From: Zingiber officinale | Taxonomy: Eukaryota > Streptophyta > Magnoliopsida > Zingiberales > Zingiberaceae | DNA length: 64,000 nt | NCBI RefSeq assembly: GCF_018446385.1 | Contig: NC_056004.1 | Coordinates: forward strand, 24,062,492-24,126,491 | Reading direction: 5' to 3' | Shown: in pieces, positions 761 through 36,860 of the stretch | Position numbering within the stretch: the stretch's first letter is position 1 | Layout: each line of letters begins with the position of its first letter | Program-made: the position numbers and the translations under genes | The notes under the pieces: model-generated | What the model was told of the DNA's origin: nothing | Databases searched by the model: none | What the model saw: the letters and a program-made list of their open reading frames with translations, nothing else

Positions 761-1521
761 TGATCTGGTGATAAGGAGGGGTCTCGGTCAGCAGGGTGGT
801 CAATGACATGGTGGAGGTCAAAGTCAAGCTGGTCAACGTCCCAGTGTTATCGTCCGATCGGGCAACCCCCTTTTCCTACCGGGAGGAAGAATCGTCGAGT
901 CTACATGAAGCAGACATTAGCACAGCTCGGCCAGGTACCGAGCTTCCGATGCTCAGACAGACAAGGCATGCGCTGAGTGGCCAGCCCGCTCGGACTCACA
1001 CAAGCAAAATAGTGAAGACCGAGCAGATTATATTCAGACACAGCTTCTCCGTTCTACATAGCAGCGGAGCCTGGACAGTGGATGCTGGCCGAGCAGCCAT
1101 TCCGCTCAGCCCGAGGACAAGATCACCCGGACGACTGATAGCTGGCCTAGCGGCTCTTCCCCTCGACCTGTAACAGACAAAAGGAGGATAAGAGGATATC
1201 CTTTTGGGAACCTGTGTCACTGACAGACAGCATGCTTGGTGGCATGGTCAGGCAGAATATCGTACGATAGAAGCTTCCGCTGTCTTGTCAGAGATATGCT
1301 CGGGTCATTAAGGTATGGTGTCAGGGATACTTTTCTGACACGCCTCTTCAGGGTATGTTTTGAGGAGCGTGCATGCATCGGGGAGCGTGCATGCGCTCCC
1401 AAGGAGTCCTATATAAAGACCCTCAAGCTTCGATGGAGGCTTCATTGACGAGGAGTCCACTAGCGGTCAACGGGAGCGCCACGTCCCCATCATCCATTGC
1501 CTCAACTCTCGGACAGAATTA
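761..1521 (+). repeat. Tat-A 5' LTR
   Basis: Starts TGATCTGGTGATAAGG and ends ..GGACAGAATTA just before the PBS. It aligns along its length with 9429-10188 and with the split copy 2191-2647 plus 3271-3573. A TATA box (CTATATAAAG, 1409-1418) lies about 110 bp before the LTR end, so the transcript would start near 1440. Confidence 0.88.
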
Positions 1522-1567: not shown

Positions 1568-2190
1568 ATGGAAGAAGCTAGACGACTTCACACCGTGACG
1601 CCCACTCAAGAAGAGCTCGACGCGCTAATACAAGTGTGAGCGGCAAAGATCGTCGAGCAACATCAGCAAAAGGCACTAGCTGACCGACTAGCGCAACAAG
1701 CAACGTCGACCTCTGGAGGTTGAGCGGCTCATGACGACCGACCGGAGCAGTATTCTATTTGTGGACAAAATAAGCTTCTGACCGACACGCATGGAGAAGC
1801 TCCACCCGCGTCTATTCCATTTCATCGGGCTCTGTTTCAAACGCCCTCAGAGATTACGCAAGCAAATCAGGAGAAGGGATCTTCTTCAGACGAAGCGCCC
1901 GTTCAAGACGCAAGGAAGGACAAGGCGCCCCGAGCCGATGCATCTCCCGAGCGGATCAACCGTCAGTTCTTCGAAGCAATACTACAAGACCCATTGTCGA
2001 GGCACTACGCTCCATTGGCAATCGGAGAGTACAACGAATCGATCGATCCGGATGATCATTTGGGAAAGTTCGATAACACTGCTACACTTCACCAATACAT
2101 AGATGGGGGGAAGTGCCGAGTCTTTCTCACAATGCTATCCGGCTCGGCCCAGGGATGGTTCAGGAGGCTGTCGGACATGATCAAATTTTG
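1568..2190 (+). pseudogene. Tat-A gag, truncated and broken
   Basis: Starts MEEARRL at 1568 after the PBS, continues with TPTQEELDALIQ, then hits stops and frame changes. At 1994-2190 another frame reads the conserved gag core (HYAPLAIGEYN, DDHLGKFDN, GSAQGWFRRLSD), matching the Tat-B gag at 16222-16430. Coding sequence ends abruptly at the LTR starting at 2191. The zinc knuckle and the 3' part of gag are missing. Confidence 0.75.
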
Positions 2191-2647
2191 TGATCCGGTG
2201 ATAAGGAGGGGCCCCGGTCAGTAGGGTGGTCAATGACATGGTGGAGGTCAAAGTCAAGCTGGTTAATGCCCCGGTGTTATCGTCCGATCGAACAACCCCC
2301 TTTTCTGATCGGGAGGAAGAACCACTGAGCCTACATGAAGCAGACGTTAGTACATCTCGGCCAGGTATCGAGCTTCCGATGCTTAGACAGACAAGGTATG
2401 CCCCCGAGCGGCCAGCCTGCTCGAACTCACACCGGTAAAACAGTGACGACCAAGCAAATTACATTTAGACACAACTTCTCTGTTCTACATAACAGCGGAG
2501 CCTGGACAGCTGATGCTAGCCGAGTGGCCATTCCACTTATCCCGAGGACAAGATCGCCCGGACGACCGATAGTTGGCCGAGCGGCTCTTCTGCTCGGCCT
2601 CTAATAGACAAAAGGAGGATCAGAGGATATCCTTCTGGGAACTTGTG

Positions 2648-3270
2648 TTATAACGGCCCAGCCCGGGCGGGCCCCACCCGGACCGAACCAGGAACGCCAC
2701 CAAAATTGCCCATCGGGTTGACAACTAGCTCCACAGACCACCGGAGGTCCTTTCAGTGTGCTTTGTCCTCACTCGCACGCACACTTAACCAGAATCTTAA
2801 AACCGGGGTATTACAGTAACCCCCACTTAAAGACACAACGTCCTCATTGTGTAACCATGAATCACATCACAGACAAATCTCAGAATCTCCCTCGCTAGGT
2901 GGTGCCCTGGGTGCTTCTGCCACAGGTGCACTCACGGTCGCAAGGTCGTTCTGATACCATATGTAACGCCCCGGCCGGGCAAGCCCCACCCGGACCGAAC
3001 AGGGAACACCACTAGAATTGCCCATCAAGTTGACGACTAGCTCCACGGACCATCGGAAGTCCTTTCAGCGTGTTTTGTTCTCACTCGCATGCACCCTGAA
3101 AAACTTCCCAGGAGGTCACCCATCCTCAGAGTTCTCCAAGCCAAGCACGCTTAATTTTGGAGTTCTTAAGTTTGGGCTTCCGAAAAGGAAGGTGCACCTT
3201 GGTGATATGAATAGTATCATCTAACCTTTTAAGTCATACTTAACTAGAATCTCAGAACCAGGGTATTACA
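2648..3270 (-). mobile_element. Cassandra TRIM retrotransposon
   Basis: A tiny LTR element lying antisense. The right LTR (2962-3270, 309 bp) starts TGTAACGCCCCGG and ends TATTACA. The left LTR (2648-2815, 168 bp) starts TTATAACGG and has the same end. Between them, read on the minus strand, are a tRNA-Met type PBS (GGTATCAGAAC, complement of 2947-2957) and a G-rich polypurine tract near 2816-2828. There is no coding region. TGTG flanks both sides. The right LTR carries a 5S rRNA-like block, the hallmark of Cassandra; the left LTR has lost it. Confidence 0.9.
3090..3199 (-). other. 5S rRNA-derived segment within the Cassandra LTR
   Basis: Read on the minus strand this holds the landmarks of plant 5S rRNA in order: a GGTGCA start, GAACTCC, TTAAGCGTGCTTGG, then GATGGGTGACCTCCTGGGAA and GGGTGCA at the end. 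The middle is diverged. It is a captured 5S sequence with remnants of the RNA polymerase III internal promoter, not a functional 5S gene. Confidence 0.85.
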
Positions 3271-3573
3271 TGTGCCGTCGACAGACGCATGTTTGGCGGC
3301 ATGGTCAGGCAGAAGATCGTACAATAGAAGCTTCCGCTTTCTTGTCAGAGATATGCTCGAGTCGTTAAGGTATGTTGTCAGGGACACTTTTCTAACACGT
3401 CTCTTCATGGTATGCTTTGAGGAGCGTGCACACATCAGGGAGCATGCACGCGCTCCCAGGGAGTCCTATATAAAGATCCCCAAACTTTGACGGAGGTTTC
3501 ATTGACGAGGAGTCCACCAGCGGTTAACGTGTCACGTCCCCAACATCCATTGCCTCGACTCTCGGACAGGATG

Positions 3574-5222
3574 CGGTTGTCCGTTCGGTTAGACTACCGA
3601 GCAACCAACAATGAAGCCAAATATGAAGAACTTATAGCTGACCTACAGGTTGCCTGGCACATCGGAGCCATCAAGGTCCTCATCCACTCGGATTCATAGT
3701 TGGCTGCTTAACAGCTAAATTGGACGTTTGAGATAAGCAACGCGCAACTCAGGCTCTACGCGGAGGCTTTTGAAAAGCTTAAGGCCAACTTTCGGGAGGT
3801 CATAATATAGAAGGTCCCCCGAGCGGAGAACCAAGCTGTAGACGAATTGGCTAAACTATCCAGCTCGTTATCACTGATCGTCATATCGCAGCGGATCGTG
3901 CAGGTAGCTTTAGTGGCCCATATTAACCGGATAGAGGGACTTACCTTCCTAGACGATTGGAGGACAGCGTTGACGGAATTTCTGCGATCGGGAACTACAC
4001 CGTCCAATCGGGAGGAGGTCCGCTTATTAAGAAAGAGGGTTGGTCGATTTACCCTGATCAGAGATCAGCTCTACAAGAAGGCTTTCTCGAGTCCCCTACT
4101 TAATTGCGTAGGGTCGAAGGATGCCGATTACATAATACAGGAGGTACACCAAGGGTCTTGTGGAGGACATCCAGGCGACCGCTTATTGGCAAGGAAGATT
4201 TTAGTTGTCGGATACTTCTGGCGGACCCTCCAGGATGATGCCAGTCGGATGGTTGCCACCTGCTTATCTTGTCAGAAGTATCACAATCTCTCGCACCAAC
4301 CGACCGAGGAGATGAAGACATCCACAGTGACTTGTCCGTTCGACCAGTGGGGCGTGGACATCATGGGGCCCTTCCCCATGGCTACGGGTTAGAGGAGGTT
4401 CCTGCTCGTCGCGGTGGACTATTTCTCCAAATGGGTCGAAGCCGAGCCGCTGGCGAGGATAACCGAGCAGATGGTCATGAAGTTCATTTGGCAGCACATC
4501 ATTTACCGATTCGGGATCCCGCGTCGGCTCGTCTCCCGAACCGACGCAGGATCCCGAACCGGTTATCCTCGGTAGCCTACCGGGATCCCTACCGATAATG
4601 GGAGACAATTCATGGTCAGAGGCTCAAGGAGTGGTGCGAAGGGTACCACATTCAGTAAGCCTTCACTTCGGTAGCCTACCCTCAGAGCAATGGGCAAGTG
4701 GAGGTCGCCAATCGTGGAATACTTTTGATCCTGCGCATTCGGCTCGACCACGTCGGAGGGAGCTAGGTAGATGAGCTCCCCAGCGTACTATGGACGATCT
4801 GCATGACTCCCAAGGAAGGGACCGGGGCAACGCCCTTCCACCTTCTATATGGTGGCGAAGCGGTCGTCCCCGTCGAAGTCGGGGTTGAATTCGACCGGAT
4901 ACAACACTACAACGAAGACAACGCCGAGCGGAGGCTTTTGGAGCTGAACTTGGTGGACGAAGTGCACGCTAAAGCAGTCGTCCGACTGATGGCGTACTGA
5001 CAGAGAATGAGACAAAGATACAACCGAAGGGTGATCCCAAGATTGTTTCAGGTCGGTGACTTGGTGTGGAAGAAAGTAAAGCCGGTCGACGAAGTCACCA
5101 AGCTGGAAGCTCCGTGGGCTGGACCCTTCAAGGTCGTAGAAAAGCTTCGCTCGGGCGCCCACTATTTACAGGATGAGGACGGGCAGCGATTAGAACGACC
5201 GTGGAGTGTGAACCATCTCTAG
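3574..5222 (+). pseudogene. Tat-A RNase H and integrase (pol 3' part)
   Basis: Reading starts in the middle of the extra RNase H domain (ATNNEAKYEELIADLQ). Next comes the spacer ending ENQAVDELAKLSSS and the integrase zinc-binding module (HQGSCGGHPGD..CLSCQKYH, about 4140-4290). The catalytic core follows: VDIMGPFP near 4350, SKWVEAEPL, TDNGRQF near 4597. The C-terminal module ends RRVIPRLFQVGDLVWK and a stop at 5222. In-frame stops occur at 4390 (TAG), near 3698 and 4999. A short insertion of about 58 bp disrupts the core at 4538-4596. No RT or protease is present upstream. Confidence 0.82.
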
Positions 5223-5339: not shown

Positions 5340-6200
5340 CATGTCGAATCATCGAGCGACGACGTTAAACTCCTGTCTTCATCGAACCGTCGAGCGACGA
5401 CGTTAAACCCCGATCTTGACCAACCGTCGAGTGGTGATGTTAAATCTTGGTCTTCATCGACAGTCGAGCGGCAACCTTAAACCCCGATCTTTATCGACGG
5501 TCGAGCGGCGACCTTAAACCCCGGTCTTGACCAACCGTCGAATGGCGACGTTAAACCCCGGTCTTCATCGATGGTCGAGCGACGACCTTAAACCCCGGTC
5601 TTCATTGACGGTCGAGCGACGACCTTAAACCCCTGTCTTCACCAACCATCGAGCAGTGACGTTAAACCCCGATCTTCATCAATCGTTGAGCGGAGACGTT
5701 AAACACTGGTCTTCATTGACGGTCGAGCGGCAACCTTAAACTCCTGTCTTCACCGAACCTTCGACGTCGAGCGGCGACGTTAAACCCCTGTCTTCACCGA
5801 ATCATCAAGCGGTGACGTTAAACCCTTGTCCTCATCGACGATCGAGCGGCGACCTTAAATCCACGTCTTCGTCAAATCGTCGAGCGGCGACGTTAAATCC
5901 CGGTCTTCATCGACGGTCAAGCGGCGACTTTAAACCCCTGTCTTCACCGAACCGTCGACGTCGAGCAGCGACATTAAACCCCTGTCTTCACTGAACAATC
6001 GAGCGGCGACATTAAACCCCTGTCTTCACCGAACTATCAAGCGGCGACGTTAAACCTCTGTCTTCACTGAACCATCGAGCGGCGACGTTAAACCCTTGTC
6101 CTCATCGGCGGTCGAGCAGCGACCTTAAACCCACGTCTTCGTCAAATTGTCTAGCGATGACGTTAAACCCCGGTCTCCAATGAAGATCGAGAGGTGACCT
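5340..6200 (+). repeat. Tandem array, about 37-38 bp unit, Tat-A 3' untranslated region
   Basis: About 22 degenerate copies of a unit with GTCGAGCGGCGACGTTAAAC and GTCTTCATCGA, period 37-38 bp. The same unit occurs in Tat-B at 20975-21116 and 29030-29140. Arrays between integrase and the antisense gene are common in Tat elements. There is no spacer diversity and no cas gene, so it is not CRISPR. Confidence 0.88.
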
Positions 6201-6435: not shown

Positions 6436-8683
6436 TCACTCTATATAGTCGAATACATCATCAGGCATGGAGTCGTTCAGATGATTGCGGCTGATAACGC
6501 CATCTGTCAGGGCTTTGGGAAGGTGACCGCCCGCCTTGAGCTGCTGGAGGGTCCCATCAATGTCTAACTCGAATGCTCGGACGATCCACTAGACAACTTT
6601 TTTAGTAAACTGGTCCAAGCGGAGATACTCCTATTTCATCACGACAAATCAGCTTGGCTCTTCCTGTTGGTAGACCGTCAAGGCAGAACGGGAGGCCTTT
6701 AGGGCATCTTCAGCATCCTTGAGCTTCTTATTTAGAGACTCCTCTCCAGCCCTCGGCAGGCTCGCTCGGCGATCAAATAGTCCTCAGCTTCTTTATACTT
6801 TTGGGCGAGTCGTCTAGCCTCCTGGTTCTTCAGTTCCAGGTCGGCGATGGCTCGCTGCTTTCTTGTGGAGGCAAGCTCGAGCTTTCTGTCGTAGGTCTTC
6901 AACTGAGTCTCGATCTGGCCCAACCTACTAGTCTGATCGCTAACTTCTGCTGCTTTGCCGCGAGGAGTTGTTGGGCCTTTTCCAGATCGGCCTGCAGCTG
7001 GGCGACTGATGGCCCCTGGGAGGAAGAGGCGCCGCCAAAAATCTTGAGCTTCTTCAGTTCTTCCTCCACAAGGGCGAGCCGTTGGCACATAGTCACGCTC
7101 TCCACCCAGTACTACAAGGGAACAGAAAAATATTAACGTCGATCGAAAGAAAATTATGAAATGATGAAATACGTACCCTAGTGGACATCTGTAGATGGTT
7201 GTTCCCGAGTGCTCCTGGCGATATCGTTGCCGCTCGGGGTTGTGCTTCCTCCCAAACGCCGATAAGTGGCCCGCAAATTATAATCTTGTGTTCGGGGATA
7301 GTCGGACGGGCGCACTGCTCAAGATAGTCCTCCGTCGGAAGGTTGATAGTCGCTGTCACAGATCGCCGGCTGCTCGGGTCCGACGAGGAGGAGACCGCCA
7401 GACCCAGAGGAGCGACGACAGATGCCGGATCGATCCTGGACACCCATGGTCTTCGTAGGGTACGGGGCGGCGGCAAAAAGGAGACCAGGGGAGCAGTGAT
7501 GGCCTCTGACGGCGTTTCAGTTAGGGATGGAGTTCGATCAAACGAGGTGGCTTCCACTGTTGGGACAACTACAGGAGACGAAGTGCCCTTGGCGGTACCC
7601 ATGGCCGAGGTGGCGGATCGGGAGGTGTTTTTCGTACGGCGCCTCTTGCGCTTGATGAGTTGCAACCCCTCATTAGAAGACTCGATACCCTCGGTCTGAG
7701 CGGTGGGCTATGCTTCGAGAGTTGGGAGTGGCTCAGCAACTTCTTCGATGCTGGCTGTCTGAACGGCGGTGGGGGTCTCCTTGCTCTCAGCTTACGTGCC
7801 TTCATGGGAGTCAATCGGCGCCAGGCCAAGGCTCGCCATTTCCTTGGCAGCAGCCGCTTCGATTTCGACATCCTTCAGCTTCGTCAGGCCGGCCGCGCGC
7901 GCTCGCATCATGATCTTGGCTGCAAAAGGAAAAAAAACAAATCAGTTAGACTCAAAAGAAAGGAGCCGAGAAATTTCATACCAAGCCGCTCGGGAGGCTC
8001 GTGCGAATCGAACTTAGCCCAAAGATGTACATAACACCCTCCAGCAATATCTTATGGATGTCGTACTTCTGACTAGCCAGCATGTTCGCTACATGAAGAT
8101 AATCTGGTTGACTCTTGTACTTCTTCAGGTTCGGCTGAGGTGGTAGTCCGACCTGCCATTGGGTCTGGAAGCTTGGCCGTTCAGGAAGCCGCATGAAGAA
8201 GAAATACTCCTTCCAATATTTATTCGAAGTAGGTATCTTATCAAAAAATACTAGACCGATCTGAGACTGAAAGAGATAGGCCCCTAGCTTAGACTGCTTG
8301 GGGTAATAGAAATAATGAAAAACTTGAGGGGTTAAAGGGATGTCGTGCAGCCAAAACAGGATGACAACGCTGCACAACAGATGAAAGGAATTGGGTACTA
8401 GTTGGGGGAGAGGAACACGGAAGTAATTACAAACTTCAAGGATAAAAGGATGGATTGGGAAGCGAAGACCAGTCATAAACTAGTCTCTGAACAGACATAT
8501 TGTGCCGATCGGCGGATCATTAGGCCGGTCGGACGAAGAGGCCAAAATGATTTCATTGTCAGGGGGGATTTCGAAAGCGTTTCGGAGGTTCTCGGCGTCT
8601 CCCTCGTCAAACCTGGTCTTCATGGTGGTGTACCAGAGGTCAGGAGCGGGGTCAGAGGGTCGGGAAGAGCTCGCTATCGCCAG
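6436..8683 (-). pseudogene. Antisense gene of Tat-A, PF04195-like, with two short introns
   Basis: It runs opposite to pol. Exon 1 (8683-7982) holds DLWYTTMKTRFDEGD, a stop (Q to TAG near 8478), then TGLRFPIHPFILEV and FFDKIPTSNKYWKEY, resembling 'putative gypsy type transposon' (PF04195) proteins. Intron 1 (7981-7920) has GTATGA..TTTGCAG; intron 2 (7176-7112) has GTACGT..CTTGTAG. Exon 2 starts near MMRARAAGLTKLKDVE and includes a basic KRKRRR patch. Exon 3 is a coiled coil (VEEELKKLKIF, LQADLEKAQQLLAAK) ending DGTLQQLKAGG..FDYIE and a stop at 6436. The ancestral start codon now reads CTG (8683). Stops and a frameshift near 6955 make it non-functional. Tat-B carries the same gene at 29417-32780. 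Function is unknown. Confidence 0.7.
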
Positions 8684-8943: not shown

Positions 8944-8953
8944 CTTTATAAAG
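8944..8953 (-). promoter_or_regulatory. TATA-like box upstream of the Tat-A antisense gene
   Basis: CTTTATAAAG lies about 260 bp before the (lost) start codon of the antisense gene. Tat-B has TTATAAAC in the equivalent place (32938-32945). The word is palindromic, so strand is inferred from position. Confidence 0.4.
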
Positions 8954-9412
8954 CTTGAGATCGGCCAACCGGGGCCATCCGATCCAGGTCACGGAAGCCG
9001 GAGCGTAGATCTAGCCGTTGAATTCAAACCACCAAATATCACATCAACATCTGTCGCTTCGGGCGTGCGATGATGACGGCTGTGACACGTGGCACACGCC
9101 TACAGGGTAGCATTTAATGAACGCCATTAACAGGCATGGGCACGTGCTCGGCTTTAATGAAGATGATTTGCACGAATTCTGAAGGGATTTGGATGATGTC
9201 AGCATTGACTGCTCTCATCCAAAGACAGAAACTATAAATTTCTCCAAATATGAATTAGCGAAGTACCGATCGGCCTCAAAGAGCAATCTCAGGGCTGCCC
9301 GACACCCTCAGGCAAGCCGGTCGGGGTCCAACCAGTATCACGGCCGATCGACCAACCAATCTTTAGACTAGCTCGTCCAGTTAGTCGGACTTACAGCCTG
9401 ATTCGATTAGAC

Positions 9413-9428: not shown

Positions 9429-10188
9429 TGATTCGGTGATAAGGAGGGGCCCCGGTCAGCAGGGTGGTCAATGACATGGTGGAGGTCAAAGTCAAGCTGG
9501 TCAACGTCCCAGTGTTATCGCTCGATCGAGAAACCCCTTTTCCGACCGAGAGGAAGAACCGCCAAGCCTACATGAAGCAGACGTTAACATAGCTCGACCA
9601 GGTACCGAGCTTCCGACGCTCAGACAGACAAGGTATGTGCCGAGCGGCCAGCCCTCTCGGACTCACACTGGCAAAATAGTGACGACCGAGCAGACTACAT
9701 TCAAACACAACTTCTCCGTTCTACATAGCAGCGGAGCCTGGACAGTGGATGCTGGTTGAGCGGTCATTCCGCTCAACCCGAGGAAAAGATCGCCCAGACG
9801 GCCGATAGCTGGCCGAGCAGCTCTTCTGCTCGGCCTATAACAGACAAAAGGAGGATCAGAGGATATCCTTCTGGGTACCTGTGCCGCCGACAGACGTCAT
9901 GCTTGGCGGCATGGTTAGGCAGAAGATCGTATGATGGAAGCTTTCGCTGTCTTGTCAGAGATATGCTCGGGTCGTTAAGGTATGGTGTCAGGGACACTTT
10001 TCTGACACGTCTCTTCATGGTATTCTTTGAGGAGTGTGCATACATCGGGGAGCGTGCACACACTCCCAAGGAGTCCTATATAAAGATCCCCATGCTTCGA
10101 CAGAGGCTTCATTGACGAGGAGTCCACCAACGATCAACGGGAGTGTCACGTCCCCAACATCCATTGCCTCGACTCTCGAACATGATCA
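9429..10188 (+). repeat. Tat-A 3' LTR
   Basis: Starts TGATTCGGTGATAAGG and ends CGAACATGATCA, followed by the target duplication AATAA (10189-10193). It carries the same TATA box (TATATAAAG near 10078) as the 5' LTR. Many scattered substitutions separate the two LTRs, so the insertion is not recent. Confidence 0.88.
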
Positions 10189-14858: not shown

Positions 14859-15748
14859 TGATGCAGCGATAGATGGAAGCCTACTTGTCACGGGATCAAC
14901 GGTAAAGATGGAGGTCAAAGTCAAGGGAATCAATGTCTAGATATCAAAGGGTTGAACGGAGGACAATTGCGATGGATGATCGGGACAGTCAGGGCCTGAC
15001 CGGCGGGAGACATGTCCGAGCGGATCACCCGTCCAGCTCCGGATGATACGTAAGACAGCCGACGTTCGGCACAGAGCAGCAAGACGCCAAAAGAGACCAG
15101 ATAGCTTGTCTGAACAGAGGAGGGCATGTTACTACACAGTCACCGCATGGAAGAGCAACTGAGGTAGACAGAGAGGAGGGGTCCCGGTCGAGCGGCTTCC
15201 TCGCTCGGCCATGCAATGGGACCTGGTCAAGGACGGAGCGGAGTCCCGGCCGAGCGGCTATCTCGCTCGGCCAAGCAACGGGACCACTATAGTATCTCTC
15301 GATATCCTTTTGGGAGATAGTGTTGCTGACACGAGGTATGGTCGACAAATTGATCGTATGGCGGAAGCTTCTACTGTCTTGTCAGGAATATGCATGCCCT
15401 GTTAAGGTATGGTGTCAGAGGTACTTTCCTAACAGGTCCTTTCATATGATGTATTGGAGAACGCACCCACACCTTGAGAAGCGTTCATGTCACCCACCAG
15501 AGCTCTATATAAAGGGGGTCTATCACTGGCGGAGGTATGCGTTATTACTATTTGGTGCTAGTTCTACTGTTGCTCCACTTCTTCTACAATTCCGATGATT
15601 GACTTGAGCGTCGGAGGGCCAACGTGGGAACCCTTTCCCTGACTCGGCACTGACGTTACTTGTTTTGCAGAGCGGAGCGAGATCTACAGTCGGTCAGCGA
15701 AGCCGCCACATCCCTAGCTTTCCACCTTCCCGCCTTCGGATATAATCA
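14859..15748 (+). repeat. Tat-B 5' LTR
   Basis: Starts TGATGCAGCGATAG and ends CGGATATAATCA. It contains a TATA box (CTATATAAAG near 15504) about 240 bp before the end. It aligns with 33475-34360. Confidence 0.87.
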
Positions 15749-15751
15749 TTT

Positions 15752-17390: not shown

Positions 17391-20300
17391 GACCAAGTCC
17401 ACCTGGCCGTCTCACTCGGGGAGGAGCCGCTAAAGAGGACAAGGACTACAAATTTTATTGTAGTGGATGTGTCATCGGCCTACAACGTCATATTGGGTCG
17501 ACCAGCACTCGATGAGTTTCAAGCAGTGGTGTCCAACTTTCGCCAGAAGATCAAATTCCCGGTGGATAACAAGGTAGGCGAAGTCAAAGGTGACCAGTTG
17601 GTCGCTCGGCGATGCTACGTCGAGATGGTTAAATTCGAAGCAAGAGCCGCTCGGAAGAACCCGCGCTTGGAGGTGAACGCTATCACAGAGAAACCTCCTA
17701 CGCTGGTATATGACGAAAAGGAGGAGTTGCAAATTCACCCAAGCCAGTCAGAGACAAACTACCTTTGTCACTGCCGACCTGGAGAACAAGGAGAAAGAAG
17801 AGTTAGTCACCTACCTCAAACAAAATCACGACATGTTCACCTGGTTAACACTTGAGCTCCTTGGGATTTCGCCAAGCATGGCTCAACATAAGCTTCATGT
17901 CTGACCGGATGCTAGGCTCGTGAAGCAGAAAAAGAGAGACTTCAGCGCGGAGCAAAACCTGATCATCCAGGCGGAGATCGAAAAATTGCTGGAGGCTGGA
18001 CACATCCGGGAAGTCCAATTCTCGAGCTGACTCGCTAATGTCATGCTAGTCTCCCAGCCGGGCAATAAGTGGAGTGTCTGCATCGACTTCCACGACTTGA
18101 ATAAGGCATGCCCAAAGGATTTGTACCCGCTGCCAAGGATCGATTAAATGGTGGACTCTATGGCAGGCTACGAGTTGATCAGTATCAAGGATACCACCAA
18201 GTACTGCTCGTCCGGAAGGATCAGGAAAAGGTCAGCTTCATCATGATCGACGGAATGTACTGCTACAACATGATGTCGTTCAGATTGAAGAACGCCGGCG
18301 CCACCTACTAGAGGTTGATAAAAAAGTATTCCGTTGGCAGATCGGCTGAGACATGAAAGTATATGTCGATGACATATTAATCAAATCCATCTGAGCTGCT
18401 AATCTTTGTGTAGATATCGAGGAAACATGTCGAACCTTAAGGGCATATAGGATAAAGCTAAATCCAAATTCGGCGTGAAGAATGGCCACTTCCTCGGATA
18501 CATTATCATCGAACGGGGCATCGACGCGAATCTGAGCAAGGTGAAGGCGCTACAGGATATACTCCCGCCCCACAATTTGAAGGAGGCCCAACGGCTGATC
18601 GGACGGATCACAACGCTGTCAAGGTTCATCTCTAAGTAATCCGACTAAAGCCAACCATTCTTCAAGGTGTCACGCCAAACGACAAAATTCCAATGGGACG
18701 TGGAGTGCAACAAGGCACTGGAAGAGCTTAAGGAGTAGCTCAACTCCTTGCTTGTATTGGCAAAGCCGAGCGCTGGTGAGCCGCTCTGAATCTACCTGTC
18801 ATCCACCAGGTATGCGGTTGGCTCGACATTGGTAAAGTAGAATGGCCATGAACAACAACCCGTGTATTTTTTGAGTCATATATTGAAAGATGTAAAGTCC
18901 CGCTACACCTGTCTTGAAAAATTAGCATACACATTGGTGCTAGCTGCTCGAAGACTTTGTCCGTATTTCCTGGCTCACCCGATTGTTGTGACGACCAACA
19001 ACGCCCTGGGAAGAGTCCTTCTAAACCCTGAGATGTCCGGATAGCTTATCAAGTGGACGACCAAGCTTAGTGAGTTCGACATTCAGTACCAGCCTCAAAC
19101 AACAATTAAAGCCCAAGCCTTGGCTGATTTCATCACAAAGGTCCAGAACACCGAGCCAGATGCAACTTGGAAGATATACGTCGACGGCTCATTCACTCAG
19201 CAAGGCAGCGGATCGACATTCTGTTGATTTCACTTCAGGAGGACCGGATGCAGATGTCCGTTCGGCTAGTTTATGAGCGACGAATAATGAAGTTGAATAC
19301 GAAGCCTTGATAGTCGGCCTACAGGTACCTTGGCACGTCGGAGCTACAAAAATCCTCATCAACTCGGACTCTCAATTAGTCGCTTAGCAGCTATCGGGGG
19401 CATTCGAAATAAGTAGCTCCTGACTCCAGCTATATGCAGAAGCCTTCGAGAAGCTGAAAGTAAATTTCCAAGAAGTCATTATATAGAAGATCTCCCGCTC
19501 AGACAACCAGGCAACAGACAAACTGGCTAAGTTAGGTAGTTCATTATCTCCGGTTGTGATAAACCATCCAATCGAGCAAGTCTCACTAGTGGCGCACATT
19601 GATCAGATGGAGAGAGTATCCTTCCCAAGCAATTGGAGGACACCGTTGATTGAATCCCTCCGATTAGGAAGCACACCGTTCGATCAAGAAGTAGTTCGTC
19701 TATTGAAAAGGAGGGCTGGACGATTTACGTTCCGGGATCAGCATTATAAGCGGGTTTTCTCGAGGACGCTACTCAAGTGTGTTGGATCAGAAGACACAGA
19801 GTACATCCTTTAAGAAGTACATCAAGGCTCCTGCAGAAGTCATCCGGGCGGCCGATCACTAGCATGGAAGATCCTTCTAGCTGGATATTTTTGACCCATG
19901 CTTCAGGAAGACGCTACTTGGGTAGTGGCCACTTGCTTGTTGCGCCAAAAATATCATAATATCCTGCATCGACCGACCAAGGAGATGAAGGCGTCCACGG
20001 TATCTTGCCCGTTCGACCAATGGGGCATGAACATCATTGGACCGTTTCTAATGGCGACCGCTCAACGAAGATTCCTACTCGTCGCTGTAGATTATTTTTT
20101 AAAATGGGTGGAAGCCGAGCCGTTAGCAAAGATAACCGAGAAGATGGTCATCAAATTCGTCTGGTAGAACATCTTGTGTCGGTTTAGTATCCCCCGCCGA
20201 CTCGTCTCAAACAACAGAAGGCAGTTCGCCGGTCAAAAGCTCAGGGAGTGGTGTGAAGGCCATAGTATTCAGCAAGTCTTCACCTTAGTGGCTTACCCCC

Positions 20301-20974: not shown

Positions 20975-21116
20975 AAAGTAGAGCGGTGACCTTAAACCCT
21001 CGTCTATGTCAGCGATCGAGTGACGATCTTAAACCCTCGTCTTCATCGACGGTTGAGCACAACTTTAAACTCTCATTTTCATTGATGGTCGAGCGGCGAC
21101 CTTAAACCCTCGTCTT
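20975..21116 (+). repeat. Tat-B tandem array, left part
   Basis: Degenerate units with GTCGAGCGGCGACCTTAAAC, as in Tat-A 5340-6200. The array is cut by the nested LTR element at 21117 and resumes at 29030. Confidence 0.8.
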
Positions 21117-22198
21117 TATTGGTGCGGTTAGCACTAACGATTTAACCCAGGTTTTGATGAATGACAAATCAGGTTAAGTTAGTTTGTTATTGTCTAACAC
21201 TCTGATCGAGTGTGCAGGAGAAGTTCAGACAGGTCGACGGGCTGACCGAATGTCTGGCACGAAGCCCAGCTAGGTCGACAGGCTGACTGGATAGCTAGCA
21301 CAAAGTCCAAGCGGGTCAACGGGCTGACCGGACACTTAGGCACGAAGTCCAGCTAGGTCGACGGGCTGACCGGATAGCTGGCACGAAGTCCAGACGGGTC
21401 AACGGGCTGACCAGATGTCTGGCAGGTAAGTAAGGTAAGTCACTGGAGGGGAGTGACTGCGAGGACGCGTTCCCGGGAAGGGAACATTAGGTGTCGATCC
21501 GGCTTAGATCCATTTCGGATATCTAAGTCGAGATCGTGACTAGATTCCGGTCTCGGAAAGACGGAATCTAAGTCATACTCCTTTTTGCTAATTCATACTC
21601 ACTTTGCTTTTGCTAACAATCTGTGTTGCAGGGTAAATTTGCCTCCGGACTAACGTTTGTCTTGCAGGGACGGATTCTGCGGGAAAATAGGGTCCGGGCG
21701 CCCGGGAGGCAAACTTCATCTAAACTCGCGCGTCGCCACATGGAGCATCTCGGTTTGAGCAGCTACGTCACATTCCAGGCGCCCGGAAGGAATCCAGGCG
21801 CCCGGAGCAACATATAAAAGAAGCCCCAGGCAGGAGCTTCAAAATCAACCTTTCACATCTGAGAACTTTGAGATTACTCGCTTTGCTGCTCTGCGCTCCA
21901 ACGACGCTCACAAAGCTCCGACGACACGATCCCGCTCTTTTAAATTCCTTGTCTGTCGGTACATCTTTGTTTTTCTTTTCATTAGCATCTTTTTGTACTT
22001 AAATTGTAATTATCCGAATTGCTAGTGAATTGTCCAACGAAAGTACTCAAGGAGTACGGGCCTTCGAGTAGGAGTCGTCACAGGCTCCGAACGAAGTAAA
22101 AACCCTTGTGTCTACTTTACTTTTCCGCTGCGCTTATACTCGATATTTTCGAATCGATATTCACCCCCCCCCCCTCTATCGAATCTAACGGTCCTACA
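21117..22198 (+). repeat. 5' LTR of the non-autonomous element
   Basis: Starts TATTGGTGCGGTTAGC (the 3' copy has TGTTGG, so the second base mutated here) and ends GGTCCTACA. TATA-like CATATAAAAG near 21809. The region 21215-21425 repeats GGTCGACGGGCTGACCGGA five times at about 45-50-bp spacing. Confidence 0.9.
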
Positions 22199-22200
22199 AG

Positions 22201-22212
22201 TGGTATCAGAGC
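22201..22212 (+). other. Primer binding site (tRNA-Met type)
   Basis: TGGTATCAGAGC two bases after the 5' LTR complements the 3' end of plant initiator tRNA-Met, the usual copia primer. Confidence 0.85.
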
Positions 22213-22560
22213 AGGTACCGCTCTGATTTGGTGCAACCACCAATCAGGCAAAGGGGGAACTTTTTGAAAGAAAAATTAGATATCATTTGTCTTTAAAATA
22301 AAATCTTACGCCTTTCGTTTTTTCCCTCCAAAATGGTTTTTGAAAAATACATCGCCATCTTTTCACCATTGTTTAGTATTTAAAAAATATTACATTTTCA
22401 AAATTTTTGAAATAATATTTTTTTTTCAAATATTTTATTAATATTTTAATAATATTTTATTATTCTTTCTGAAAATAGTGAAATATTATTTTTTTCAGCA
22501 CTGCTAATCCAAGACCAAGTCTTGGGATCTTTTTGTTTGTTTCTCTGTGTGCAAGAAATT

Positions 22561-23748
22561 ATGACTCTTCTAGAAGGACGGAACCCCTGCGAACCACCAC
22601 CATACGATCATGAAGACTTCAACTACTGGAAGCGATTAATGGAATGCTTCTTAGGAAGCGTAGACATCGATTATATGCTAATTTTGAGGAAACCTTCTCA
22701 AAACTCAGAACTGAACAAAAAGGTAAGTAACATTATTTGTAATGTTTTACCTAACAATATTTTATGCAGATTAGAAAAGTACAAGAATGCATATGAGTTG
22801 TGGACCCAGTTGATCAAGCTTCACGACACGCCAATGGAGCTAGAGGATCAAGTTAAAGTCAAATATGGACTCGAGTCAAATCCAACGGAAAAGCCTACTG
22901 AATTAGGGGTTGCGCTCAAGGTTAGTACTATTTACCAAAATACCCCTGCTAATAGTAGTTTAAATAATCAGCATGATGATAAGTATGAAATTAGTCCAAG
23001 TATGGTGCATGATAATATAGATTTAAATGATTTAAATTCAAAATCACAAAATAATCTAGACTCTGATCAAGTCAATCAAGACCCTGATCAATTTGGCATC
23101 AACATTGACTTGGTCAAACTGAACAATGACCAAATCAATTCAAATAATTTAATTAATCCAGAAAATGTGAAATTAGGTGAGCATTTAGACATAAATAAAT
23201 CAAACATTAAAATAAATTTGAATTTAAATGCTAAGAATGAGAAAATGGATAAAATCAATAAATACTTTGATAAAATATTTAATAATCAAGATAAAATCAG
23301 TCTAGAAAATGCTATCCAAAATCAAGATAATTTAATTAATAAAAAATTAAACTTTAAAGATAAAACTAATCTAATAAATTCAATTAACCATATCAATTTA
23401 AAAGGCAAAGAAAATATAAGGATAAAATCAAACACTTTGATAAAATCAAAACGGAATTTAACAAACTTAAAATTAAATGTTAAAGATAACATATTAAACA
23501 AAAATAATCTAGAAATTTCAAAATCAACAATTAATAAAAAGCTAAAAGATAAACCGTTAAGAAAATATAATTCAAACAGTTTAGATTTAAAAATAAATAA
23601 AAACTTAAACTTTATAAATAAACTATTAAAGAAAGATAATTCAATTAACCCAATAAAATTGAAATTGAAAGAAAATTCAAATATTAAATACACTCTCTTA
23701 AAGAAAGATAATTTAACCAATTTAATTAATTCAAAATTAAAAACTTAA
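22561..23748 (+). CDS. Gag-like ORF of the non-autonomous LTR element, 395 residues
   Basis: I chose the start MTLLEGRNPCEPPPY because it matches the usual start of copia gag in this superfamily (compare GPLGWDIQIPPPYN at 11.6 kb). An in-frame ATG at 22522 would add 13 residues. Residues 1-125 look like the DUF4219/UBN2 gag N-terminus: FNYWKRLMECFL, VSNIICNVLPNNILCRLE, AYELWTQLIKLHD. From about residue 140 the sequence turns into a low-complexity tail very rich in Asn, Lys, Leu and Ile (NKLNFKDKTNLIN, KLKENSNIKYTLL). No zinc knuckle is seen. The frame is fully open for 1.2 kb in very AT-rich DNA, which hints at selection or recent origin. Its role, presumably particle formation, is inferred. 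Confidence 0.7.
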   Translation: MTLLEGRNPCEPPPYDHEDFNYWKRLMECFLGSVDIDYMLILRKPSQNSELNKKVSNIICNVLPNNILCRLEKYKNAYELWTQLIKLHDTPMELEDQVKVKYGLESNPTEKPTELGVALKVSTIYQNTPANSSLNNQHDDKYEISPSMVHDNIDLNDLNSKSQNNLDSDQVNQDPDQFGINIDLVKLNNDQINSNNLINPENVKLGEHLDINKSNIKINLNLNAKNEKMDKINKYFDKIFNNQDKISLENAIQNQDNLINKKLNFKDKTNLINSINHINLKGKENIRIKSNTLIKSKRNLTNLKLNVKDNILNKNNLEISKSTINKKLKDKPLRKYNSNSLDLKINKNLNFINKLLKKDNSINPIKLKLKENSNIKYTLLKKDNLTNLINSKLKT

Positions 23749-24339
23749 ATTTAAATTACAAATAAAACATTAAAACTTAACTAAAACCAACTCTAATTAT
23801 ACAAAAATCTTAAATTAAAAGCCAATAATTCAGGGGAGGCTCCAGAATAGCTGGCACCTCCAAAATTAATCTACCCGACAAGGGTAAAATAAGAGTAGAC
23901 TACCTGGCATGGTAGTTAGGAATAGAATAAATAGGGACAAAAAGTTTAACTTGACAAGTAGTACTGGTGAAGTTTTGGTTGATAGTACGTTGGGGAAGCT
24001 TGGGCATCGCATGTCTAGAAAGATATGGCTCCGATCTGGTGCATTTGGCCAAGTGGAACTGACCGAAGCTACCCCTTACAGATCCTAACTAGGTAGACCA
24101 AGGTTTAGTACTAAGCTCCGTGGATAGAACTATTCGGAAAACCTCGAAGGGTTGGTTACTTCTAATGATGTCCAGGTGACTCACCAAGCTTAGAAGTTTA
24201 TCCGAAGAATGCCTATTTGTTGAGACCAAAGCTAAACCTGAATCTAACACAAGTTAAACCAAACTCTGTAATTAAATCAAATTCATCTCACAAAACTATA
24301 GGATTCCCTGATTGATAATCTAGATCGGGTGAGATGAAT

Positions 24340-29416: not shown

Positions 29417-32400
29417 TCACTCAAGGTAATCCAGCACATGATCGGGCAGCGACTCGGTCATCTTATCCTGGCTGATGACCTTGTTTGTCAGAGCGGTTGG
29501 GATATAGCTGCCGCTCTTCAACTGGTTGAGCGTCCCATCGACGACAATGTTGAAAAGACGGAGCGCTCGATCGATGAGCTGGTCATTGTGTTGGACCTCG
29601 TGGTAGTTTTGATGTGATCAACCAAGTTAGTTAGGTCCTGCGTTGTGTCTGAACCCTGTGTCTGAGTGTGCAGGAACTTAGGAGCGTAGGAAGTCGTGCG
29701 GAAGACGCAGCTAGCGAGAAGGACGGCACGGGAAGGGAGCCGACGGGCTCGATGCGTCCGAAGGACGAGAGAGCTACGGAAGAGTACTCCGGTGGAGCGA
29801 GAAGAACGTGCGCGGCGTTCGAGGGACGAGAAGCCGGACGGAAGCCTGCTCGAGGAGAAGGCTAGGAACTGGGTTCGGGTGAGCCCTATTCCGGATGGCC
29901 GCAATCACCCAAGGAGCCGAACCGGAGCAAGTCAACTGGAGTTGACTTGTCAACGGTTCGATCGACCGAACCTATTGATCGGTCGACCGAACCCTTCATT
30001 AACCGAAGTCAATCAGCAGCCAACCGCCAATGTCACGTCAGAAGCTGACCGTTGGTAAAGCTAATCGGTCGACCAAACCAAAGTTAATCCACAGACTTAG
30101 TCGAGCAAACTGATCGGGCCAACTCAGCTGGAGACCGTTGGCCGATCGGTCGACCGAACATAAGGATCGGTCGACCGAACAAAAGCTTATCCTCAGAGAC
30201 TGCACCTGGACGGAAGACTGGGCAGGTACAGCAGGTTCGGTCGACCGAACCTGGGGATCGGTCGACCGATCCCTCTCGAGTCAAACCTGATCCCGAAGGA
30301 TCAGGTGATCTAATAAGCTCGAGAACCCCTATATAAAGAGGGTCTCGGGCAGCTTTAGAGAACAACGATTTCATACGAAAAACCAACTTTGTAATTCATC
30401 TTCTGCAACTTCTGTGCTTTCAAAGTGTAAAAGGCTTCTCCGCCTTCAGAGAAGGAGTTTTCTTACTGAGCCTTTCATCGCCCTGGATTAACAACCCTCT
30501 TGGTTGTAACCAGGTTAAATTTGTGTGTCTATTTCTCTGATTATTTTATTCTCAATATACTTTCATTTATTTTAGAGTTGAAATTGCTTGAGGAGGGTAT
30601 AGTTTCACTTGCAGGCAATTCACCCCCCTCTTGCCGATCCCCGTTGCACCATCACATTGAAGGCGTTTGAGCGGAGGTAGTATCGCTTCATGAGCTCGAA
30701 CCAGCTACTCTCAGCACCCTAATAAACCTCGAGGGCCACTAAAGATGCTTCCAGGTCTGCTTTTAACTTGGCATCTCCTCATCCTTTGCGGCAAGCTAGG
30801 TCTTCGTGGAAGAGCGCTCGATCGATCGACCCTCCCATTCGACATTCAGGGAGGCCTCTGTCTCCTTCAAACTCTGAGCCAACACCCGAAACTCCTTGTT
30901 CTTGATTTCCAAATCCTTGATAGATCAGAGGTTCCTAGTTTGGCCGAGTGGATCTTCGCTTCAAAGGAGGTGGCCTGCTTATTGAGCCTCACTAGCTGCG
31001 TTGCCTGCGCAGCACTCTTGCCCTTTTCTGCCTCCAGTAGCTCGGAGCTCCTCTGCAGGTCAGCCTTCAATTAGATCACTTCAGCGCTCATCTGCTCCGA
31101 GCGCGCCTGTGAAGCAGATAATTGGTTGCTTGGAGCATGCAACTGCTGGACTTCGTACTCCAAATAGGCGAGTTTGTGGCACATGGCTAGACTCTCTTTC
31201 CAGAATTACAGCAACAGGAAAATTGTAAAATGCTAAACGGATAAAAAAAGTAAATGCAAAAGAAGCATACATACCCCAGTGGACATCTGAGTGTGACTGT
31301 TGGCTAGCTCCCTCAGAGAGATGACGGACGCATGGGGTCGGGCATCTACCCATATCTGTGTGAGCAGCCCTTGGATCCTTATCTGGTGCTCGAGGGTGAG
31401 GGGCGTCGAGTCGTCTGCACTATAATAGAGGGGTCTGAAGTCGTCCTGCCTAGAGACGGAGACGTCAGAACTAGTCGGATCTGGGACACTTGGGTCGTCA
31501 GCAAAGATGGTGGTATGAAGGCGACCGACGACGCGTAAATTGTCCTCTGAGGCAGCATGGACAACGAGGGTGTCCAATTGGATGATATGGAAGCAAGGAG
31601 CTCTGTGACTCCCTACTCGAGAGGAGGAATGGAGGTCTCGCCCCTCTCGGAGGAGGGTCGGGAGACAACCGGTGTTGGGTTTTGTTAGGTAAAAGTTGTA
31701 GATTAGGAGGACTCTTCCGCTCGACGTCTCTTGCGATGTTGCAGCGGTTCGCCGGAAGTAGCTGACTTTGAAGCCACAGCGATTGGAAGCATCGAAAACT
31801 ATTCTGGAGGAAGGTCCGCTGTGTCAGCCGCTACATCACTCGGCGCGATCGGGCTTCTCCCACAACTAGCTAGTGCTTGCGTCTCCTCGGCTTCGCCGAG
31901 CGAATCCAAGTGAGAGTCGACCAGGTGCAGGCCACGACTCTCCAACTTGGTCACGACCACAACGTTGATCTCTGTGTCCGTGAGCTTGCACTTGCCGGCC
32001 AGACGTGCTCGCAACATGATTCAAGCTGCAAAAGAGGAGGAAAAATCAGCTAGATTCAAAGATTGGGGAAAGAAAGAGCATACCTAGGCTGGACGGAAGC
32101 TTTGTTCGGATCAGACTCAATCCAAACACGTAGAGGACGCTCTCCAGCAGCAACTTATGGATGTAGTACTTTTAACCGGCCAAGCTTGAGGCTACCTGTT
32201 GATAGTCCGATCGACTTTTGTACTTTTTGAGTAGTGGTGGGTTTGTCACTTCTAACTACCAGCTGGTCGGAAAATCTGGACACTCGGGAAAGCGAACGAA
32301 GAAGTTGTGGTCCCTCTAATGCTTATTGGAGGACGACATTTTATCAAAGAAAACCAAGCCCACTCGGGCTTGGAACAGAAAGGTCCCCGGCTCTGACAGT

Positions 32401-32780
32401 TTTGGGTAATAGAAGTAATGGAAGAGCCGAGGAGTCAAAGGAATGTCATGCAGGCGGAATAAAACTACAACCCCGCACAACAACCGAAAGGAGTTCAACA
32501 CTAATTAATTAAGAGAAATACGAAAATATATACAGATTGTGGAGGAGAAAGGGTGAACAGGGAACCGCAGACCCACGGTGAACTGATCCTTAAAGAAACA
32601 CAAAAAACCTGGTGGAGGGGCGTACGACCAATTGTACGCAGAAGAAATGACAACTTCGTAGTTGGATGGAAACTCATAGATGGATTTCAGACTTTCAATA
32701 TCGTCCTCGTCGAACTTGGACTCGGTGGAAGTATACCAGAGCGCAAGGACAGGGATAGGAGGTTGCGAGGAACTGACCAT
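29417..32780 (-). pseudogene. Antisense gene of Tat-B, PF04195-like, split by a solo LTR
   Basis: Homologue of 6436-8683 in Tat-A. Exon 1 starts MVSSSQPPIPVLALWYTS at 32780 and contains FFKDQFTVGLRFPVHPF and VVLFRLHDIPLTPRLFHY. Intron 1 (32083-32026) has GTATGC..TTTGCAG. Exon 2 starts near MLRARLAGKCKLTDTE. Intron 2 lies near 31274-31210 with donor GTATGT; its acceptor now reads TAAT where Tat-A has TAG. Exon 3 is a coiled coil (MKADLQRSSELLEAEK, ATQLVRLNKQATSFEAK). It is interrupted by the solo LTR at 29613-30656 and ends DGTLNQLKSGSYIPTAL..DYLE with a stop at 29417. Several nonsense codons occur. Shared exon-intron layout with Tat-A implies an ancestral spliced gene. Confidence 0.7.
29613..30656 (+). 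mobile_element. Solo LTR (copia-like) with repeated palindromes
   Basis: Starts TGTGATCAACC and ends GCACCATCACA (inverted termini TGTGAT/ATCACA), with TTGA directly on both sides. TATA box CTATATAAAG near 30331. 29950-30275 carries about eight copies of TCGGTCGACCGA-type palindromes. No PBS or coding region is attached, so it is a solo LTR left by recombination. Confidence 0.82.
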
Positions 32781-32937: not shown

Positions 32938-32945
32938 GTTTATAA
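32938..32945 (-). promoter_or_regulatory. TATA-like box upstream of the Tat-B antisense gene
   Basis: TTATAAAC on the minus strand, about 160 bp before the start codon at 32780. It is the counterpart of the Tat-A site at 8944-8953. Confidence 0.4.
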
Positions 32946-33460
32946 GCCTCGCGGCCGATCGACCTGAGCCGTTTGATCCAAGGTTGCGAGAAACTAGGAG
33001 AGGATCCAGTCGTCGAATTTGAAAATGCACCTGTCATGTTGCCAACGAATATCCACCTGTCACGTTAAACGTGTAGTGGTAGAAAGGGGGACACGTGACG
33101 TTCAATCACCGGGAGTCATTAATGAGACTTAATTAAAAGGTATGGTCGTGTGCTTAGCCATAATGATCGAAGATTTGCACGGTCTTCAAGAAATTTGGAT
33201 GACGTCAAGACATTCAGCCAAGGAGGCGCAAGGAAAGAAGAAAATTCACTAAGTGTTGTCGTTTACCGTCCCGACCAGGTACAGATAAAGGATTAGCACA
33301 CAGCTGAACGACCGAGGCACAATCTGTTTTGAAAGGCGTGGTCCGAGCAGCATTTGCAGGCTTAGCCTGGTGATATAAAGCCGAATGGCGAAACTGTGGA
33401 AGTCGTCAAAGACTCTACTGGCCTAGTCAGTCGGACTTGCAGCCTCTTTCGACTAGACTT

Positions 33461-33474: not shown

Positions 33475-34360
33475 TGATGCGGCGATAGAGGGAGGCCAAC
33501 TGCTAAGGTTGAGGTAAAAGTCAATGGGGTCAATGCCTAGGTGTCAAAGGGTCAAACGAAGGACAATTGCGACGAACGGTCAGGACAGTAAGGGCCCGAT
33601 CGGCGGGAGACATGTCTGAGTGGACCACCTGTCCAGCTCAGGATGATACGTAAGACAACTGACATTCAATACGGAGTAGCAGGACGACAAAGGAGATCGG
33701 ATAACTTGTCAAAACGGAGGAGGGCATGTTACTACACAGTCACCGTACGGAAGAGCAACTGAGGTCGACAGAGTGGAGGGGTCCTAGCCGAGCAGCTACC
33801 TCGCTTGGCCAAGCAACGGGACTTGGTCAAGGACGGAGCGTAGTCCTGGCTAGGTGGCTATCCCGCTCGGCTAAGCAACGAGACCACTATAGTATCTCTC
33901 GACATCCTTTTGGGAGATAGTGTCACTAACACGAGACATGTGGTTGACAGGTGGATCGTACGGGAAAAGTTTCTACTGTCTTGTCAGAGATATGCATACC
34001 CTGTTAAGGTATGATATTAGAGGTACTTTCTTGATAGGTCCTTTCATAGGATGTATTGGAGAACGTATCCACATTTCGAGAAGCGTACACGTCGCCCACC
34101 AGGGTTTAATATAAAGGGGGGTCCATCATCGGTGGAGTCATGGAGGTACGCGTTATTACTGTTTGGTGCTAATTCTACTGTTGATCCACTTCTTCTACAG
34201 TTCTAGTGACTGACTTAAGTATCAGAGGGTCAACGCCGAAGGCCCCTTCCCTAACTTAGCACTGACGTTATTTATTTTATAGAGCGGAACAAGATTTACT
34301 GTCGATCAATGAAGCTATCATATCCCTAACTTTTCATCTTTATATCTTCGGATAGGATCA
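33475..34360 (+). repeat. Tat-B 3' LTR
   Basis: Starts TGATGCGGCGATAG and ends GATAGGATCA. The LTR TATA has decayed here: the equivalent of CTATATAAAG in the 5' copy reads TTAATATAAAG near 34106. Confidence 0.86.
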
Positions 34361-36860
34361 TTAATTAAATAAAATAATGTGTAGTTAATGATAATCTAAA
34401 TATTTCTAGCTAGTGGTGATGTTGATGATTCTGGTGAGGTGGCACCTAAAACTACGTATTAAATAATTCTAATAATATTGCCTTGAATTTTATTCGCCAT
34501 TGTATTTTTTTATTTTAATATTTTAAACCAACTGCTTTTATAAAATATCAGTATATGTGATATTTTATCCTCTGGAATTGGGGTACCATAGTTAAAATAT
34601 AAAATATTATCATATTGAATTGTAGAATCAAAATTTGATGCATTTGAGTATGTTTTTTCTCATATCTTGATCATTTATTAATGATTAACTGTTATTCGTA
34701 ATTTATCTTTTTTATAATGAATTTAGAAATTCAAGTATAGAGGGACGATCACGATGAATAAGGAGCGGTATCCTCCATTTCCATCGGTGGAATCTCCTAA
34801 TACTAGAGGTTTCACCGTCGACAAGGAGAGTGATCGCCGATGCCGCCTTCTCACTGGATCCGCTCTTGACCTTCTCCATATTGATATAAGGATGAATTGA
34901 TGATGCCACCTTAGTATATGTGATATTTTTCTATAATAAATATATTTATAGGAAAATAATTACGAGTTTTAAGTGTTAAAAATTTGTAAATTGTATATAT
35001 ATTTTTCATATATGTATAGAGCAGGGTGTAAACCTATATACCCGAGAGTTATCCACGAGTTGCCCATCGACTTGGATGTGCAGGATAACACCATTATATA
35101 CATGAATCCAGGGACCTAGATTTCATTTTATTTTTTCTAATATTAACGACTTTTTTATAAAAAAATAATACTCCTAAAAGTAATAATAATATATCTAGTG
35201 AAATCTATATTTTTTTCCCTTATACACTATTACTTAAAAAGGAAGCATAAATTTTAGAAGAAAAATTTTATTAACTTAAATTCAATATAATTTAACCTCT
35301 AAATTTTAAAATTTTAAATGTTAAATACATATAATATATCTGTAAGTATCTAAAATTTTTATTTTAAAACACTATAACATAAAAGGAAAATTTTGAATCC
35401 TAGACGAAAAATCTTATTTGCTCAAACTCATTATAACTTAACTTCTAAATTCTAAAATTTTAAACCATAAATATATATAATATATTTAAAAAATAATATA
35501 TATATATATATACGAGACATTACGGATCAAAATCTAATTTAAATATATATTCGACAAATAAAAATATTAGAATTTTTTAGCGAATGTTTTTTTTTTAAAA
35601 GCAAACACATCTTCAGCTTTATAAACACCTACGAAGTTGCAATGGATGATAACATAATGTTCTAAAGTAGGACCCAATTGCTCCCGCTGGGGCATAGGCT
35701 GATATTGACAGGATCTGTCTCTTTGAGATGATACGAGGATTAAGATGTGAGATGTTAAGTCAAAATTTAATAATTATTAATAATTAATAATTTTTCATGA
35801 TTTATCTATATTGATCTAGGGACGGATTAATAAAAATATTAGAGTAAATGAATCATTTTTTATCACATAATATTGACAGGATCCCATAATTAAGGATAGA
35901 GTTTAACTAAGTTAATAGATAATTATTTTTAATGGATGATTAATTTTAAAATATTAAATTGATGGACCACCTGTCATCAACACTTTCATTATTATTATAT
36001 TTATCAGTAGAACTTTTCACACGAATGAATCCATCATCCCATAATTAATCAACATATTAAATATATAATGACAACTAAAATAAATAAATAAATAAGTAAA
36101 TAAAAATAATCACCCCTCTCTTAAGCTGGGAAAGGCAGACTTGGTCGATTGCCATTACAAACATAATTCATATTTTATTTAAGTATAATAAATATATTAG
36201 AAAATAATAAATTTACTATTCCGTAAATTGTAAAAAAATAAAAAATACACCATATTTATAAAATATTTTAGTAGTTGTAAAAATTTGATTTAAGTATATA
36301 TGCAAAATTTATTCATTAACACTCATCTATTAAAATGAATATAGAATCCAAACCTATTTTATCTTTAACTAATTGAATCTTTAAGACTTCAATTTATATT
36401 AAAAATATACCTAACTAGATGGTGCCCGACTTAAGAATATACATCATTAAAAACTTTGACACTTTATTATAATATTTACTCTAAATAGTAAAATTGAGGA
36501 AGATGAATCGGATGCAAGTTGGATCTCCTATTGCATACTATATTATATTTTTAGCGTGTGTTTTATTTATTTTATTATTATTATTTTCAGCACTTTATCA
36601 TTTTAGTAGTATTGTTCACATGCTCACTCATAATTTAACTTTATGTTTAAATGTACGTACTTCGAAAGAATAATTCCAATGGAGATTAATTAACAACCAT
36701 CTTTATTTTAAAAGGATTTTAAATTTTAAATTTTAAATTTTTATTTAAAAATCAGAGTTTCTAATTTTACGGCTGATTTGGTAAAGCGTTTAGTAATTTG
36801 ATTATATCTAATAAATATTTATATAATATTTTTACTCGTGTAAAGCTTCTTCTTCCTTTC
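34361..36860. other. AT-rich intergenic DNA, no gene seen
   Basis: No convincing coding sequence on either strand. A (TA)n run lies near 35490-35512. A minus-strand frame at 34712-34909 (65 codons, MASSIHPYINMEK) has no recognisable relatives and no splice context. Confidence 0.6.

Follow-up and report, generated by a model that had tools for sequence, protein, structure and literature searches.

The window, a 64-kb stretch of the Zingiber officinale genome (assembly GCF_018446385.1, NC_056004.1, positions 24,062,492 to 24,126,491), contains two damaged Tat LTR retrotransposons, Tat-A and Tat-B, each with an antisense gene downstream of pol (Table 1). In Tat-A this gene is located on the minus strand between the integrase and the 3' LTR, and consists of three coding blocks separated by two gaps of 62 and 65 nt with GT..AG ends, exactly as the preliminary description had it.

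Table 1. Features of Tat-A and Tat-B and their positions in the 64-kb window
Feature	Position	Strand	Remarks
Tat-A 5' LTR	761..1515	+	88.6% identity to 9429-10182 across 755 columns
Tat-A integrase remains, fragmented	3811..5219	+	PF17921, E 1.4e-7
Tat-A 37-bp tandem array, pol to antisense gene	5352..6176	.	21.7 copies
Tat-A exon 3	6436..7111	-	conserved C-terminus, TGA stop included, internal frameshifts
Tat-A intron 2	7112..7176	-	65 nt, GT..AG
Tat-A exon 2	7177..7919	-	basic cluster near 7653, two in-frame stops
Tat-A intron 1	7920..7981	-	62 nt, GT..AG
Tat-A exon 1, PF04195 domain	7982..8677	-	ATA at start codon position, one in-frame stop
TATAAA upstream of Tat-A antisense gene	8945..8950	-	candidate promoter element
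Tat-A 3' LTR	9429..10182	+	paired with 761-1515
Tat-B 5' LTR	14905..15750	+	81.2% identity to 33505-34362 across 858 columns
Tat-B RNase H (PF17917), then second RNase H (PF13456)	18841..19384	+	5' of integrase
Tat-B exon 3	29417..31205	-	broken by foreign-looking DNA, about 29620-30650
Tat-B second intron-like stretch	31206..31274	-	GTATGT start, TAA end (Tat-A: TAG), AG absent
Tat-B exon 2	31275..32025	-	basic cluster near 31738, stops, frame change
Tat-B intron 1	32026..32083	-	58 nt, GT..AG
Tat-B exon 1	32084..32780	-	starts with ATG, four in-frame stops
TATAAA upstream of Tat-B antisense gene	32939..32944	-	candidate promoter element
Tat-B 3' LTR	33505..34362	+	paired with 14905-15750

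The two Tat elements

A second RNase H (aRH) between the RNase H and the integrase marks the Ogre/Retand-type elements of the Tat clade (PMC6317226). Tat-B shows this domain order, with PF17917 at 18841-19041 and PF13456 at 19277-19384, followed by the integrase, and in Tat-A a weak trace of PF13456 was detected 5' of the integrase (E 0.011). The reverse transcriptase of Tat-B is reduced to short remnants, one of which (18031-18144) is without a Pfam match, and the corresponding part is gone from Tat-A. The integrase fragments of the two elements are 61.5, 68.8 and 58.9% identical and a piece of gag is 66.4% identical. Judged from the 59-69% identity of the integrase fragments, Tat-B is a family distinct from Tat-A.

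Besides the outer pair, Tat-A has a third LTR (2189-3572) in the interval between gag and integrase, broken by an insertion into two parts (2189-2648 and 3267-3572). These parts are 86-89% identical to the outer LTRs; Tat-A is rearranged. Tat-B hosts a nested element (21116-29029) bounded by direct repeats (21116-22198 and 27971-29029, 95.3% identity), which holds a dense array of tandem and inverted repeats at 24424-26110 and an ORF (22453-23745) without a Pfam match at E 0.001. Elsewhere in the window a Retinoblastoma A domain (PF01858, 50522-51448, plus strand, E 7.3e-62) identifies a host retinoblastoma-related gene. A search against Rfam gave no match anywhere in the 64 kb.

Structure and decay of the antisense genes

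Both antisense genes are dead. The copy in Tat-A lacks the ATG that is present in Tat-B, has stops in exons 1 and 2 and frameshifts in exon 3, and its reading frame slips close to the end of exon 1. In the Tat-B copy, exons 1 and 2 contain stops, one of them directly past the first exon junction; exon 2 also changes frame, and exon 3 is interrupted. The interrupting DNA (29620-30650) is approximately 1 kb long, contains many GGTCGACCGATC-like repeats and is not present in Tat-A. The layout of the encoded protein is the same in both families, with a PF04195 domain followed by a basic cluster and a conserved C-terminus, and the basic clusters are located at matching places in exon 2. A plus-strand ORF in Tat-A (7525-8034) was considered as a gene and rejected, its best match in Tat-B having an E value of 0.021 over 51 residues.

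The explanation that we favour, and hold to be probable both as to gene structure and as to the gene being an accessory of the elements' own, is a decayed antisense accessory gene belonging to Retand-type Tat LTR retrotransposons. The comparison behind it covers two broken copies at the level of sequence.

Coding constraint

Exon 1 of Tat-A and Tat-B aligns over 688 columns without a single gap, and the 268 differences are distributed 82/50/136 over codon positions 1/2/3 (chi-square p 6.5e-10; dN 0.32 with dS saturated, from two copies). In the region upstream of the TATA motif the corresponding numbers are 60/55/54, with nine gap runs in 488 columns. The codon-position bias is weak in exon 2 (104/130/147, p 0.025), and none was found between the exon 3 sequences of Tat-A and Tat-B (56/57/57). 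A plus-strand frame over exon 1 has a likewise low dN/dS (0.17), yet contains 16 and 14 stops in the two copies. The exon 1 proteins are 60.2% identical over 166 residues, ungapped, and their conservation is about that of the integrase fragments (58.9-68.8%) and of the gag piece (66.4%). By its codon-position bias and ungapped alignment, exon 1 shows coding constraint on the minus strand.

A role for the RNA has been put forward as a possibility alongside a protein in a 2020 review, which also reports antisense transcription of such regions in Grande and Retand (PMC7264820). A reading in which the antisense RNA is what matters, pairing with the genomic RNA and leading to dsRNA silencing while the protein is incidental, can draw on that transcription, but the conservation of exon 1 as a protein, its codon-position bias and its ungapped alignment would be needless for a pure RNA role, and we regard this reading as improbable.

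Relation to the antisense genes of Retand elements

The antisense accessory gene that we favour has close counterparts in the literature. The exon 1 piece of Tat-A matched PF04195 (Transposase_28) with an E value of 1.3e-5 and 25.7 bits, just below the cut-off of 26.2, and that of Tat-B gave a sub-threshold match (E 0.05). Among five pieces searched against NCBIfam there was a single match, also sub-threshold. The PF04195 domain and the antisense position between pol and the 3' LTR are those of the antisense TRP28 genes described from Retand elements. The likeness includes the tandem repeats in the same interval, and the distance from pol to the 3' LTR, here about 4.2 kb, is within the reported range (PMC11963269). 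That survey, of recently active elements, reports antisense PF04195 ORFs for 97% of the Retand clusters, and tandem arrays for about half of them. The occurrence of antisense extra ORFs and PF04195 proteins in plant Tat elements is also stated in the preliminary description. The same description spoke of a host-like gene. This is not supported: according to the survey, PF04195 is confined to proteins of flowering plants and nothing similar was found outside transposable elements (PMC11963269).

No relative of the exon 1 protein was found among viral and genome contigs, plasmids or solved structures, nor of a 63-column Tat-A/Tat-B alignment among viral and genome contigs, nor of the integrase among viral contigs; these collections cover prokaryotes, viruses, plasmids and structures, and little was to be expected from them.

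The Pfam name Transposase_28 hints at a DNA transposon, and the introns would point to acquisition at the level of DNA rather than mRNA. A gene of foreign origin, from a DNA transposon or otherwise, that was inserted once in an ancestor and has been passive cargo since is nevertheless a poor candidate, and we give it little credence: the conservation equals that of the integrase, the two families here and most Retand clusters have the gene at one site and on one strand (PMC11963269), and the author of the survey reports no similar known transposon (PMC11963269). A foreign insertion as the origin of the gene is compatible with an accessory gene of the elements' own; it is as passive cargo that it is incompatible.

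Probable introns at shared positions

Protein matches between Tat-A and Tat-B end at the junctions. The exon 1 match reaches 32085 in Tat-B, that of the end of exon 2 reaches 31278, and exon 3 matches from 31205. The C-terminus of the Tat-A protein matches Tat-B at 29563-29420, and the middle of exon 2 gives a weak protein match (E 0.053). As far as the broken frames permit, the intron phases agree in both copies, intron 1 being in phase 1 and intron 2 in phase 0. The GT donor is present in all four stretches, and the full GT-AG ends in three. The preliminary description had placed gaps in Tat-B at the same places as in Tat-A; this holds in full for the first, of 58 nt with GT..AG ends, whereas for the second the place and the donor agree and the acceptor does not, since the AG is absent. 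The T content of the introns is 0.47-0.53, compared to means of 0.22 and 0.25 outside (the interval for intron 2 of Tat-B includes one extra exon base). The aligned introns (identity 0.61 and 0.60) have not diverged further than exon 1 (0.61), which does not help the case for introns.

Both strands of the window were scanned for stretches of 50-120 nt with a GTANG donor, a (C/T)AG acceptor after a pyrimidine-rich run, and at least 42% T. These criteria were fixed after the introns were known, and the scan is a consistency check, not a blind test. On the minus strand of the gene bodies there were two matches in Tat-A and one in Tat-B; on the plus strand of either gene body there were none, nor were there any in 500 shuffles of each. 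Over the entire 64 kb, the minus strand gave three matches, namely both introns of Tat-A and the first of Tat-B, and the plus strand four, starting at 34146, 39903, 50164 and 53316.

That the intron-like segments are chance GT and AG ends in frameshifted, decayed coding or linker DNA might be argued from the degeneracy of both copies, the one end in four without AG and the post hoc criteria of the scan, but is very improbable in view of the identical places and phases in two families, the GT at four of four donors, the T-rich composition, the lack of matches in 500 shuffles per copy and the fact that these are the sole minus-strand matches in 64 kb. The junctions, and the protein blocks that end there, support the earlier proposal of an ancestral gene on the antisense strand whose two introns are common to both Tat families.

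Upstream region

TATAAA motifs are found at aligned places upstream of both antisense genes, within the element, and the one in Tat-A is located outside the 3' LTR. They fit the suggestion, made in advance of this analysis, that the gene was read from a promoter of its own; the motifs are what both copies share, while use of the promoter is something we infer from them.

Both leaders contain the donor-like 12-mer TCCTGTAAGCTC (8833-8822 and 32846-32835, minus strand). It may mark a third intron, in the leader, but was left unassigned, there being no convincing acceptor before the ATG of Tat-B. Further upstream, TGACGTCA is present at 33200-33207 on the minus strand of Tat-B, and CACGTG on the minus strand upstream of both genes, at 9146, 9091 and 33097. 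We take TGACGTCA and CACGTG to be possible bZIP sites.

Possible function and comparison with known systems

The antisense gene would be transcribed from its own TATA promoter in the interval between the gene and the 3' LTR, and the transcript would be spliced by the ordinary plant spliceosome. In the sense genomic RNA the introns would be present as their reverse complement, and would be copied along by reverse transcription. The introns may thus survive copying through the sense RNA because their splice signals sit on the other strand. In plants, splicing is said to promote the export of mRNAs and their translation (PMC8892269).

Among plant LTR retrotransposons, which generally lack introns, a 2025 review singles out Ogre and EVADE as notable exceptions (PMC12786077). 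Their functional introns are the counterpart of those proposed here, but are located in the sense gag-pol RNA and not on the antisense strand (PMC12786077, PMC6317226). The passages on Ogre and EVADE in these two sources name no antisense intron case.

Antisense accessory genes with their own promoter are represented by gene23 of Grande (Gomez-Orte 2013), for which a nuclear product has been reported as well (PMC7264820, PMC11963269). The likeness to gene23 is that of being an antisense accessory gene; the reported promoter and nuclear product are those of gene23 itself (PMC7264820). HBZ of HTLV-1 and the APH genes of HTLV-2 to -4 are spliced antisense genes whose products lower expression from the sense promoter (PMC10186651). 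What they have in common with the gene described here is being an antisense gene of a retroelement, the spliced transcripts and nuclear regulator being reported for the HTLVs (PMC10186651). The HBZ promoter is located within the 3' LTR (PMC10186651), whereas the candidate TATA here is inside the element, and homology is not claimed. The bZIP domain is present in HBZ and absent from the APH proteins (PMC10186651). No bZIP domain was found among the Pfam matches of ten pieces at E values up to 1, so the gene is not placed in an HBZ-like group and the comparison is limited to a similar way of working.

By analogy, the likeliest function, at somewhat less than an even chance, would be that of a nuclear protein controlling how the element family to which it belongs is transcribed or silenced, loosely in the manner of HBZ. 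Silencing control and mobilisation had been named as possible functions in the preliminary description. A structure prediction for exon 1 had a mean pLDDT of 37.9, too low for use. Heptad periodicity in five pieces of exon 3 was reached by 166, 35, 352, 164 and 375 of 500 shuffles, so that no coiled coil is shown there; the corresponding numbers are 91 and 9 for two C-terminal pieces and 379 and 218 for exons 1 and 2.

Implications

Antisense PF04195 genes as such are known from the Retand lineage; less familiar are introns at places shared between families. The Retand survey used ORF Finder and lists 104 antisense ORFs in 63 clusters, with PF04195 plus Smc-like or unnamed proteins (PMC11963269). 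The TRP28 genes were published as single ORFs, whereas the protein described here needs two introns. The word "intron" does not occur in the main text of the survey (PMC11963269), and none of the listings and passages covered by our literature search describes introns in this antisense gene, which is not to claim that no such description is in print. A search for spliced antisense transcripts has been urged in a review by the author of the survey (PMC7264820). It is conceivable, though we would put it at somewhat less than an even chance, that the multiple antisense ORFs of Retand elements belong, as exons, to a single spliced gene whose intron positions are old and lineage-wide. This lineage-wide layout is a prediction made from two copies.

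If true, Retand elements would have a gene with introns that outlast retrotransposition because the gene is read solely from the opposite strand. Antisense genes are widespread among Retand elements. Should their transcripts be spliced, surveys based on ORFs would have split one gene into several and the protein would be longer than believed. Conserved introns would then also be a sign, at the level of sequence, that the antisense strand is itself the message.
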